The notes beneath the pieces were generated by a model that searched no databases, had not been told where the DNA came from, and saw only the letters and a program-made list of their open reading frames with translations. The translations under genes and the position numbers were made by a program. A DNA stretch of 64,000 nucleotides, taken from Ilumatobacteraceae bacterium (lineage in GTDB: Bacteria; Actinomycetota; Acidimicrobiia; Acidimicrobiales; Ilumatobacteraceae). Positions 27,244 through 31,553 of the stretch are shown in pieces. Positions within the stretch are counted from its first letter, which is position 1. Every line of letters starts with the position of its first letter. The stretch lies in assembly GCA_033344875.1 (NCBI GenBank), contig JAWPMO010000001.1, positions 1,761,595 to 1,825,594 on the forward strand. The letters run 5' to 3'.

Positions 27244-28281
27244 ATGCAACCGACGATGCAGCTGGGGATGATCGGACTCGGACGGATGGGCGCCAACATG
27301 GTCCGCCGGGTCATGGCCGACGGCCACGAGTGCGTGGTCTACGACCGGAACGCCCAACCGGTCGACGAACTCGCCGCCGAAGGTGCCACGCCGGCCCACT
27401 CGATGGCCGAGCTCGTCGCCGCGATGGAACGACCGCGCCACATCTGGGTGATGATCCCGGCCGCGTTCGTCGGCGCCACCGTCGACGAACTCGCACCGCT
27501 GCTCGACGAGGGCGACACGATCATCGACGGCGGCAACTCGCTGTATCGCGACGACGTCGACCGCAGCGAACCGCTGCTCGCCGAACGCGGGATCCACTAC
27601 CTCGACGTCGGCACGAGCGGCGGGGTCCACGGCCTCGAGCGCGGCTACTGCCTGATGATCGGCGGCGACCGCGAGGCGGTCGAGGAGCTCGAGCCCATCT
27701 TCACCTCGCTCGCCCCGGGCGTCGAGGCCGCCGAACGCACACCTGGGCGCGCCGGCGATCCGACCCCGGAAGAACAGGGCTGGCTCCACTGCGGCCCGTC
27801 CGGTGCCGGACACTTCGTGAAGATGGTCCACAACGGCATCGAGTACGGGCTGATGGCCGCCTACGCCGAGGGCATCAACGTGCTGTCCAAGGCGAACATC
27901 GGCGCGGTCGACCACGCCGCCGATGCCGAGACCGCCCCGCTCAACGACGCGAAGTACTACCGGTACGACATCGATCTCGGCGCGGTCACCGAGGTGTGGC
28001 GTCGCGGTTCGGTCGTCACCAGCTGGCTGCTCGATCTCACCGCCGAGGCCCTGCTCACCGACCCGGCGCTCGATGAGTACTCCGGCCACGTCGGCGACTC
28101 GGGCGAGGGTCGCTGGACGATCAATGCGGCCATCGACGAAGGGGTGCCCGCTCCGGTCCTCTCGGCGGCGTTGTACCAGCGATTCAGTTCGCGGGGACGG
28201 TCGAACACGGGCGACAAGGTGCTGTCGGCGATGCGGGCCGGTTTCGGCGGCCACCACGAGCGGAAGAACACGAGCCGATGA
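27244..28281 (+). CDS. gnd: 6-phosphogluconate dehydrogenase, decarboxylating
   Basis: 345 residues, the short NAD-type form (GndA/YqeC-like) rather than the 470-residue NADP form. The N-terminal Rossmann motif is [15 protein letters not shown], and the catalytic region [20 protein letters not shown] carries the conserved Lys and His/Asn. The enzyme oxidises 6-phosphogluconate to ribulose-5-phosphate and CO2. The ATG at 27244 follows the divergent promoter region. Its stop overlaps the zwf start as ATGA, coupling the two oxidative pentose-phosphate steps. Confidence 0.9.
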
Positions 28282-29681
28282 TCGACTCGTCACAACCCCG
28301 CGCCGACGCACTGGTCCTGTTCGGCGCCACCGGCGACCTCGCCAAGCGCAAGCTGTTCCCGGCGCTGTATCACCTCGAGCAGGACGGCGCGCTCGACATC
28401 CCGGTCATCGGCGTCGCCCGGAGCGACTGGACCGACGACTCGTTCCGTCAGCACGCTCGCGACGCCATCATCGCCGCCGAGCCGCACGCCGACGCCGTCG
28501 CGCTCGACCCGCTGTGCAAACGGCTCGACCTGATCCAGGGCGACTACGCCGAGCAGGCGACCTGGGACGAGTTGCGGGCGACGCTCGATCGCCACCAGTC
28601 GTGCAACGCCGTCTACTACATGGCGATCCCACCGTCGATGTTCCCCGAGGTCGCCAACCGGCTCGCATCGGTCGACCTCAACCAGCGTGGTCGGATCGTC
28701 GTCGAGAAGCCGTTCGGTCGCGACCTCGAGAGCGCGCAGCAGCTCAACGAGACGCTGGCCGAGGTGTTCCCGGAAGAGCGCATCTTCCGGATCGATCACT
28801 ACCTCGGCAAGGAGAGCGTCGAGGACCTGCTCGTGTTCCGGTTCTCCAACACCCTGCTCGAACCGGTGTGGAACCGCCGGTACGTGCGCAGCGTGCAGAT
28901 CACGATGTCGGAGACGATCGGGGTCGAGGGCCGCGGGTCGTTCTACGACGGCGTCGGCGCGATCCGTGACGTGTTGCAGAACCACCTGCTGCAGGTCGTC
29001 GCCCTGCTGGCGATGGAGCCACCTGCCGGGTCCGACGCACAGTTCCTGCAAGACGAGAAGGCCAAGGTCATGGCGGCGATGCGCGCCATCGAACCGAGCG
29101 ACCTCGTGCGCGGCCAGTACGTCGGGTATCGCGACGAGCCCGGCGTCGAGGAGGGGTCGTCGGTCGAGACCTTCGCCGCCGCGAAGCTCGTGATCGACTC
29201 CTGGCGCTGGGCCGGCGTGCCGTGGTACGTCCGGGTCGGCAAGGGACTGACCGCAGCTGCGACCGAAGCCGTGATCGAGTTCCACACGCCCCCACGCCTC
29301 CTGTTCGACGAGGCCGGTGGGCCGCCTCCGGGCCGCAACCTCGTGCGTTTCCGGTTGGGCAAGCAGGACGGCGTCACGTTCGCGCTCCAGGCCAAGACGC
29401 CGGGCCCGCACCTCGACAGCCAGGAGGTCGACATCTCGGTCGACTTCGCCGCCGCGCTCGGCGAGCGCTCGGCCGCCTACGAACGATTGCTCGGCGATGC
29501 GATCGCCGGGTCACCGAGGCGGTTCGCCCGCCAGGACGTCGTGGAGCAGACGTGGCGGATCGTGCAGCCGGTCATCGACGAACCCGGTCCGGTGCACCCG
29601 TACTTCCGCGGGTCGTGGGGCCCGTCCGAGGCAGAACGTCTCCTCGGCGACGGCGATCACTGGTACGCACCCAGCAGCTGA
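28278..29681 (+). CDS. zwf: glucose-6-phosphate 1-dehydrogenase
   Basis: 467 residues. Nucleotide-binding motif [18 protein letters not shown] at the N-terminus, substrate motif [15 protein letters not shown] (about 172-186) with the catalytic His and Lys, and [24 protein letters not shown] follow in the expected order. The reaction is oxidation of glucose-6-phosphate to the lactone. It is translationally coupled to gnd. A separate lactonase (pgl) gene is not in this window. Confidence 0.93.
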
Positions 29682-29712
29682 CGCCACCGGCGAATTTCTC
29701 GCCGAGCGAGCT

Positions 29713-29742
29713 TGACTTCAAGTTCGGTTGAAGTCGTACGTT
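29713..29742 (+). promoter_or_regulatory. MerR/SoxR-type promoter with embedded palindrome
   Basis: A perfect 8-bp inverted repeat, GACTTCAA (29714-29721) and TTGAAGTC (29728-29735), is separated by 6 bp. The first arm overlaps a consensus -35 element TTGACT (29713-29718). TACGTT (29737-29742) can serve as -10 with 18-bp spacing. A long spacer carrying the operator is the hallmark of MerR-family promoters, and the sequence resembles SoxR boxes. The predicted start of transcription is at or near the ATG at 29750. No MerR gene is in the window. Confidence 0.65.
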
Positions 29743-29749
29743 CGACCTC

Positions 29750-29869
29750 ATGCACCCCACCGATCTCATCCACATCAGCGAACGACATCTCCGCGACCTC
29801 CGCGACGACGCCGACCACCGGCGCCTCGCCCGCCTGGCCCGTCGTACGGGCCGCGACTCCGACCGCTGA
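29750..29869 (+). CDS. possible 39-residue leaderless small protein
   Basis: A 39-codon ORF, MHPTDLIHISERHLRDLRDD followed by an Arg-rich end ending in RDSDR. It begins directly after the MerR-like promoter, so its message would be nearly leaderless, which is common in actinobacteria. The peptide is strongly charged and helical with many His and Arg. It may be a real small stress peptide or a leader for the next ORF 43 bp on. Evidence is only position and high third-base GC. Confidence 0.45.
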   Translation: MHPTDLIHISERHLRDLRDDADHRRLARLARRTGRDSDR

Positions 29870-29912
29870 AACCGGGAACCTCGCCGCCGCCCGCGAGCGC
29901 GACACTGCGGTG

Positions 29913-30584
29913 ATGGTCTTCGGTGACCGCGTCGCAGCGGCGAACTCGGGTGCGCCGGCCGCTTGGATCCGAAGCGCGTGCCGAGGTGCCGAGTTCACCG
30001 TCGGTGCACTCGTCCCGAACGCCTACCCGTCGGTGCTGCGAGTACAGGCACCCCCGGGCAGCGACCGGTTCTGGTCGTCGTATCGCGAGCTGTTCGCCAC
30101 GATCGCATCGGTCGGCGAACGTCACACGTCGAGTCCCGACCGTGCGTGGTTCGCGATCTGGGAGGGCCACGGCTTCGACAGCAGCACACGACACATCGCC
30201 CATCCGGGGCCGCTCGACGACGAGGCCCGGCTGCAGCTCGAGCAGGAGCGGGCGCGGTTGCGCGCGAAGGACGATCGCCGGAACTCGTCGATCCGGGCCG
30301 AGCTGACCACCGTGCCTCGGTTCACGATGCCGTATCGCACCTACCACCTCGTGACCGGACCGGTGTCGGCGGTGACGCACCTGCGCAATCCCGCCGAACC
30401 CGACGCCTGGCAACGACCCGAACTCTTCTGGCCCGACGACCGGCGTTGGTTCGTCGCCACCGACGTCGATTTCTGGTCGCTGTACGTCGGGGGTGAGCAC
30501 GAGTTCATCTCCGACCTGGTCGGCGCGGTGGCGACGCCGTCGGAGGTCGTCACCCTCGATCTCGCCCTCGAACCCGAGGACTGA
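29913..30584 (+). CDS. conserved-looking hypothetical protein
   Basis: 223 residues; family not recognised. The ATG at 29913 overlaps a GTG at 29910, and either may be used. The sequence has no membrane segment or signal peptide. Notable features are a Trp/aromatic-rich half (WFAIWEGHGFDS, MPYRTYHLVTGPVSAVTHL, PELFWPDDRRWFVATDVDFWSLYVGG) and an Arg-rich helix in the middle. It follows the possible 39-residue ORF by 43 bp and could be read from the MerR-like promoter. Confidence 0.65.
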   Translation: MVFGDRVAAANSGAPAAWIRSACRGAEFTVGALVPNAYPSVLRVQAPPGSDRFWSSYRELFATIASVGERHTSSPDRAWFAIWEGHGFDSSTRHIAHPGPLDDEARLQLEQERARLRAKDDRRNSSIRAELTTVPRFTMPYRTYHLVTGPVSAVTHLRNPAEPDAWQRPELFWPDDRRWFVATDVDFWSLYVGGEHEFISDLVGAVATPSEVVTLDLALEPED

Positions 30585-30662: not shown

Positions 30663-31553
30663 ATGTGGATACCGATCACGCTCGCCGCAGCGACCTTCCA
30701 GATCCTGCGCACCTCCCGACAGCACGAGTTGCGTGCCGTGCTGTCGACCGCCGCCGCCGGGTTCGTGCGCTATGCCTACGGCGCACCGCTGGCGGTGCTG
30801 GCCAGCCTCGTGGCGTTCGGCGCACTGGGTCGCGACGTGCCCGACGTCTCCACACGTTTCTGGCCGATCGTCGCCGCAGCCGCCGTGTCGCAGATCGTCG
30901 GCACGGTCGCGCTGCTCCGGTCGTTCAAGTTGCGCGACTTCGCCGTCGGCACGGTCTATTCCAAGTCGGAGGTGCTGATCGTCGCCGCGCTCGCGACGCT
31001 CGGGCTGGGCACGCCGCTCGAGCCGGCCGGATGGGTCGGTGCGGTGCTCGTCACGGCCGGTGTGGCGTGGCTGGCGTCGAAGGGGTCGCTGATCTCGCTG
31101 GTCAAGCGCGCAGGTGACCCGGCGGCGGTGATGGGGCTCGTCGCAGCGGCCGGATTCGCCGGTGCAGCGATCGGCATCCGCGCCGCATCGCGCGATCTCA
31201 CCGGCGCCCCGTCGTTCGACCGGGCACTGTTCACACTCACGATCCTGCTCCTGGTCCAGACGGCGGCGAACCTCATCTGGTTCGCCGCCACCGACCCCAC
31301 CCAGATCACCGCCACGATTCGGGCGTGGCGACCGGCGCGTTGGGTCGGCGTGTTCAGCCTGCTCGGTTCGATCGGCTGGGCATGGGCGTTCACGCTCGAG
31401 AGCGCCGCCAAGGTGCGCACGCTCGGCCAGGTCGAACTGATCATCGCGTTCGCGATCGCGCACGTGACACTCGGTGAACGGCACACCAGGGCCGACTACT
31501 TCGCGAGCGCGACGGTGCTCGCCGGGGTCGTGGTCGTGACCGTGCTGGGCTAG
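30663..31553 (+). CDS. EamA/DMT-superfamily membrane transporter
   Basis: 296 residues with about nine to ten hydrophobic segments and two EamA-type halves, as in drug/metabolite transporters. The second half ends SLLGSIGWAWAFTLESAAKVRTLGQVELIIAFAIAHV, with the family's conserved Glu in the C-terminal bundle. The substrate is unknown. It overlaps the convergent membrane-protein gene by 4 bp and has a strong inverted repeat just before its start. Confidence 0.8.
   Translation: MWIPITLAAATFQILRTSRQHELRAVLSTAAAGFVRYAYGAPLAVLASLVAFGALGRDVPDVSTRFWPIVAAAAVSQIVGTVALLRSFKLRDFAVGTVYSKSEVLIVAALATLGLGTPLEPAGWVGAVLVTAGVAWLASKGSLISLVKRAGDPAAVMGLVAAAGFAGAAIGIRAASRDLTGAPSFDRALFTLTILLLVQTAANLIWFAATDPTQITATIRAWRPARWVGVFSLLGSIGWAWAFTLESAAKVRTLGQVELIIAFAIAHVTLGERHTRADYFASATVLAGVVVVTVLG

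Follow-up and report, generated by a model that had tools for sequence, protein, structure and literature searches.

A predicted SoxR promoter behind zwf in an Ilumatobacteraceae genome probably serves a leaderless microprotein gene

Just downstream of zwf in the genome of an Ilumatobacteraceae bacterium, a perfect palindrome stands between -35 and -10 hexamers, and an ATG follows where a transcript would be expected to begin. This arrangement raises the question of which regulator acts on the promoter and which gene it serves. The locus was analysed within a 64,000-nt stretch of DNA (the window; positions refer to it unless a contig or locus is named), and its features are listed in Table 1. 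The reading that we consider probable, from sequence comparison, is that SoxR activates a leaderless gene for a microprotein and that zwf is not a target.

Table 1. Features of the interval from zwf to the EamA-type transporter gene (positions in the window)
Feature	Position	Strand	Basis or remark
zwf (glucose-6-phosphate dehydrogenase), upstream neighbour, judged not box-controlled	28278-29681	+	Pfam G6PD_N/G6PD_C; orthologues without box
-35 hexamer TTGACT	29712-29717	+	read from sequence
SoxR box (predicted), 8-bp dyad GACTTCAA-GTTCGG-TTGAAGTC	29714-29735	.	sequence, genome copies, SoxR co-occurrence
-10 hexamer TACGTT	29737-29742	+	19-nt spacer (29718-29736); spacing the same in 21 genus sites
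Putative leaderless small ORF MHPTDLIHISERHLRDLRDDADHRRLARLARRTGRDSDR, 39 codons	29750-29869 (stop 29867-29869)	+	codon use, spacing, partner ORF, helix model
223-aa protein without known family	29913-30584 (alternative start GTG 29910)	+	homologues known from 11 of the 150 family genomes, this one included
EamA-type transporter	30663-31553	+	Pfam; directly follows zwf in G006

The arms of the dyad (29714-29721 and 29728-29735, with N6 between them) pair at 8 of 8 positions, which confirms the perfect 8-bp inverted repeat, -35, long spacer and -10 described in an earlier note on this DNA; that note had begun the feature at 29713, and the promoter it described is real, its first base being 29712. 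Promoters of the SoxR/MerR type carry TTGAC, a 19-bp spacer and a dyad between the -35 and the -10, and TTGAC-dyad promoters are common to the whole MerR family. The interval 29712-29742 has the same geometry (TTGAC -35, spacer in the range of 19-20 bp, dyad inside the spacer). Its arms differ from the CCTCAAG/CTTGAGG of E. coli soxS and, by contrast with such promoters, a start codon is placed here at the predicted transcription start, the ATG at 29750 lying 7 nt past the -10 hexamer. A standard sigma-70 scan with spacers of 16-18 nt found no promoter at 29712-29742, as a spacer of 19 nt would lead one to expect.

Copies of the box were sought in the 4.97-Mb genome by scanning for the 16 fixed bases of the dyad with up to three mismatches (reversed-pattern control: three matches per strand). 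Four boxes were found, three perfect and one with a single mismatch, and the two next-best places had three mismatches each, the level of the reversed control. The one-mismatch box lies at soxR (C1:2698868-2698889, equal to L011:1473-1494), and the two further perfect copies stand ahead of genes for a questin-oxidase-like protein and an ABC-transporter ATPase, which are targets typical of redox-drug responses. The 31-base pattern of the whole promoter, with three mismatches allowed, gave 21 sites in 8 of the 10 genus genomes, all with TTGAC, and none in the controls. In 150 family genomes the pattern TTGACYTCAA-N6-TTGARGT gave 53 sites in 37 genomes with 0 controls among the matches listed; this pattern itself demands TTGAC, which is hence present in every family site. 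An order-wide pattern scan of 397 genomes returned 43 matches, equal to 42 distinct sites in 36 genomes, against a control of 0. That the palindrome is a chance structure without function has, given these empty controls and the spread of the pattern through genome and family, almost no probability in our judgement.

The regulator is named as SoxR because the genome's own soxR bears the same box and because box and SoxR co-occur without exception. The gene at C1:2698896 scores as SoxR with the NCBIfam equivalog TIGR01950 (E 1.3e-62; 209.8 bits, cut-off 116.9), and its translation carries CIGCGCLSLNSC, the CX2CXCX5C cluster motif. The earlier note had remarked that no MerR gene is nearby, which is true locally, since soxR lies about 0.9 Mb away; it had also proposed scanning the genome for the same box near a SoxR gene, and such a scan returns the one-mismatch copy, within which the start of soxR falls. 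SoxR is present in 57 of the 150 family genomes (56 above the cut-off) and in all 37 of the 37 that bear boxes (Fisher p 6.5e-21, a value that counts genomes as independent although related genomes are not), and 33 of the 53 family boxes lie within 300 bp of soxR, while 20 do not. Within the genus, the eight genomes with boxes are the eight with SoxR; G001 (74% complete) and G006 have neither. Another MerR-family activator could in principle serve the box, as there are MerR_1 matches at nine places in the genome and promoters of this kind occur family-wide. Among the MerR genes, however, the only other near-perfect box is the one at soxR, and this, together with the 37 of 37 co-occurrence and the many boxes beside soxR, makes such an activator very improbable; heavy-metal and other MerR regulators were rejected on the same ground. 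The suggestion of a SoxR/MerR-type promoter in the earlier note is thereby upheld and narrowed to SoxR, and we hold with high confidence, from these comparisons, that 29712-29742 is a well-supported SoxR-regulon promoter of known kind. As a separate observation, the soxR start codon (ATG, L011:1483) lies at the centre of its box, the operator doubling as the first codons of soxR, and in the family site list further soxR-adjacent boxes of relatives have CCAT at their centre.

The position of the start codon was compared across the 53 family sites, which were split by the hexamer 19 nt past TTGACY; TANNNT or a hexamer beginning with TAC was found at 34 of them. An ATG or GTG stands 6, 7 or 8 nt after the -10 in 30 of these 34 (the exceptions are L071, L081, L088 and L090), and at the same sites most other distances hold no start codon and none holds more than three, so that leaderless starts look like the usual arrangement behind these boxes. 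In the genus, reading of the site sequences placed a start codon at 6-8 nt in 21 of 21. The ATG at 29750 thus sits where a gene of the SoxR regulon is expected to start, in support of the leaderless ATG that the earlier note had proposed; we infer the transcription start at this ATG from the position of the -10, 30 of 34 boxes being alike in this respect. The remaining 19 sites are laid out differently; many belong to small genomes and flank soxR, and the genes there start about 24-55 nt downstream. The boxes beside soxR in small-genome relatives (TTGACCTCAA-N6-TTGAGGT; L051, L052, L054-L057, L075-L078 and others) have no TA-type -10 at the 19-nt distance, and about 30 nt past them begins a protein of some 94 residues (M..[FY]MVVCTFK..); the same switch is laid out in another way there.

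Leaderless translation in mycobacteria requires an ATG or GTG at the 5' end and needs nothing further, and small proteins at transcript 5' ends are common there (PMC4633059). By analogy this rule may extend to the present order, and leaderless translation of the 39 codons is likely. The mycobacterial small proteins, as presented in that paper, resemble the present case in having a short ORF with its ATG at the mRNA 5' end; here, unlike them, there is a named redox regulator and a partner locus in a second genome.

As for the target, the earlier note had pointed to zwf, which ends just before the promoter. Its involvement is unsupported, and zwf was rejected as a target: the box lies past the 3' end of the gene and reads away from it, and six genus orthologues of zwf have no box as far as their sequence was fetched. 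At these six loci, neither pattern scan nor reading found a box behind zwf (G004 has a short, broken match), and the other genus genomes carry different sequence there. In G006 the EamA-type transporter gene directly follows zwf, so the segment 29682-30662, with the box, the small ORF and the 223-aa gene, is either extra here or lost in G006.

The promoter might instead exist for the 223-aa gene downstream, in which case an operon mRNA would begin with the 39 codons, and these would amount to no more than a leader peptide or a frame that is open by accident: the two ORFs are on the same strand, 43 nt separate the stop of the small ORF from the start at 29913, no terminator-like site was found between them, and small proteins at transcript 5' ends are common in mycobacteria (PMC4633059). 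Against this, no box was found within five mismatches at 12 homologue loci of the 223-aa gene, three of which have an apparent leaderless -10 of their own (CACGCT or TACGCT 6 nt before the ATG, by eye). The similar small ORF in G008 described below is followed by a different gene, and the 39 codons show gene-like codon use and no run of a single codon that would hint at attenuation. An attenuator leader was rejected because of the missing codon run and the differing downstream gene in G008, and we regard the 223-aa gene as an unlikely target overall. In this genome GACACT at 29901-29906, 6 nt before the 223-aa ATG, compares by eye with the hexamers of those three loci. The gene is therefore seen as a neighbour that is probably independent and has a leaderless start of its own; read-through into it from the SoxR promoter is possible. 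The 223-aa protein itself has no Pfam or NCBIfam match; three copies occur in G060, and most homologues share a conserved start, M(V/I)FG.

The preferred target, the 39-codon frame, has one similar ORF among the nine other genus genomes, at a different locus, and no orthologue behind zwf at the six loci above. In G008, of the same genus, a perfect box is followed after 7 nt by an ATG and 41 codons (MYPDIHATITLLGRTTEHDLRDLDHRRALRAARRRHRAEPD, L062:1539-1664). This ORF lies on a 3.9-kb contig (JAUHYJ010000444.1) of a MAG listed as 83% complete and 5% contaminated; the locus is unrelated to the present one and away from zwf, which is on another contig, and 139 nt past the stop comes a gene that we take to be FHA-domain-like. 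The similarity of the two peptides was reached by 40 of 20,000 shuffles in local and 18 of 20,000 in global alignment, and both share M.P close to the start and, further on, DLRD or LRDL, DHRR and ARR. With two short, Arg-rich sequences (n=2) and modest homology, there is some small probability that the resemblance is due to chance.

Codon use was scored as mean log-odds, for which 326 likely-gene pieces averaged 0.47 and 78 short out-of-frame ORFs averaged -0.38. The 39-codon ORF scored 0.35 and the G008 ORF 0.32, values that 3 and 4 of the 78 out-of-frame ORFs reached, respectively. An AlphaFold model of the 39-mer from its single sequence placed residues 3-37 in a helix (mean pLDDT 84.3), in a mode possibly biased to helix for short charged peptides. 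Of 2000 shuffles for each peptide, 2 matched the strongest 18-residue helical moment of the 39-mer and 443 matched the strongest one of its G008 counterpart, so amphipathicity is not common to both. The 39-mer is rich in Arg, Asp and His, charged and soluble-looking, and shows no visible feature that ties it to redox chemistry; having neither a cysteine nor a run of one codon, it is proposed neither as a redox sensor nor as an attenuator.

Searches for further relatives were narrow in yield. Pfam and NCBIfam gave no match for the 39-mer, nor did the NCBIfam-side scan for the 41-mer; tblastn of the 39 residues in the genus gave, besides itself, only weak matches, nearly all within longer frames; a two-sequence profile run on the 150 family genomes raised nothing above noise but the two members already known (2 of 10 genus genomes); and none of the remaining 41 distinct sites from the order scan bore a relative, some frames there having 1-17 codons or being cut by contig ends. 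A scan of genome contigs for the box followed by ATGNAYCC returned the G008 contig and one Variovorax plasmid, in a collection from which the present genome may be missing. On that plasmid (Variovorax sp. WS11 pVarWS11_2, L185:3306-3350) a SoxR-type box precedes a leaderless-looking ORF of 87 codons (MHPDYPTLDRAQRALELC...), which was dropped as a peptide relative because it has no visible relation.

The shortness of the unit, the want of a protein family match and the few relatives would also suit a SoxR promoter for a short regulatory RNA in which the frame is not meaningfully translated. We consider this quite improbable, as the ATG stands exactly where 30 of 34 sites place the start codon, codon use is gene-like and the peptides of the two loci are similar. 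The 39-residue protein postulated in the earlier note accordingly gains support, short of proof, from the partner behind a SoxR box in G008, the gene-like codons and the confident helix model; that the 39 codons encode a functional microprotein is plausible, and we lean somewhat towards it. The switch is of known kind; the putative 39-residue helical protein is new and previously undescribed.

In the mechanism that we propose, SoxR would sit on the dyad within the over-long 19-bp spacer, and a redox-active drug or quinone would oxidise its [2Fe-2S] cluster, whereupon the DNA would be distorted and the -35 and -10 aligned; underwinding of a 19-bp spacer by oxidised SoxR is established for the family. 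Transcription would start on the A of the 29750 ATG or no more than one base away from it, and ribosomes would read the leaderless mRNA from its first codon into an Arg/Asp/His-rich peptide forming a single helix, made alongside the questin-oxidase-like enzyme, the ABC exporter and the Rieske protein. The most likely role of this small peptide, a view held weakly, would be to partner or modulate another protein when stress induces it. AcrZ of E. coli, a 49-residue protein that is under MarA/Rob/SoxS control and binds AcrB, is likewise a small protein in a redox/drug-stress regulon; AcrZ is a membrane helix, whereas the present peptide is charged and soluble-looking, and the likeness is one of description with no sequence relation claimed. 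More speculatively, and with a good deal of doubt, the box and its leaderless gene of 39-41 codons may be a self-contained unit of a new moving family found at differing loci of the genus, its product a helical Arg/Asp-rich partner that would tune the redox-antibiotic response through, for example, the co-induced ABC exporter, RNA polymerase or SoxR itself.

In non-enteric bacteria, the role generally assigned to SoxR is protection from redox-active antibiotics by way of a few enzymes and pumps, and a microprotein as a direct SoxR target would, if true, add an unstudied part to this response. The strict distance from -10 to start codon behind SoxR boxes also offers a simple way to search whole genomes for small leaderless genes whose inducing signal is known. 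Among the papers searched, none paired Ilumatobacter or questin oxidase with SoxR, those naming both SoxR and Acidimicrobiia were by their listed titles not about SoxR regulation, and no SoxR study for the present order was found.

The other genes behind the boxes were classified with Pfam. In this genome they comprise a Rieske-domain protein divergent from soxR, the ABC-transporter ATPase and the questin-oxidase-like protein of 328 residues, which has no Pfam match of its own and is related at E 3e-14 to a protein matching PF14027 Questin_oxidase. In relatives, the box genes encode metallo-beta-lactamase-fold, DUF6687, MFS transporter, lumazine synthase, luciferase-like monooxygenase, N-acetyltransferase, glyoxalase-like, FMN reductase and ABC exporter proteins. 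Pfam was run on 20 box-site proteins, picked for variety from the listed sites and not randomly; five matched no family (the 328-residue protein, L178, L086, L069 and a fragment at L002, which does not directly follow a box) and two gave weak repeat matches only. Such a set is what one would expect where SoxR governs a defence against redox-active compounds. In Streptomyces coelicolor, SoxR (SCO1697) likewise controls a handful of genes including an ABC transporter, a monooxygenase and oxidoreductases (PMC4146615, in part). The target listing in that part of PMC4146615 has no short leaderless protein among its confirmed targets, whereas one of four targets here is a 39-residue ORF, and the Rieske and questin-oxidase-like targets found here are absent from it.

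Two further observations concern box genes elsewhere in the order. A lumazine synthase of the riboflavin pathway (L183:1043-1492) lies directly behind a leaderless SoxR-type box in another family, and L170 and L181, from other families of the order, resemble this locus (Pfam was run on L183 only). DUF6687 (L061:1539-2504) and weak Asp-box/BNR-repeat proteins (L085, L091) also stand behind SoxR boxes; these uncharacterised families may act on redox-active compounds.
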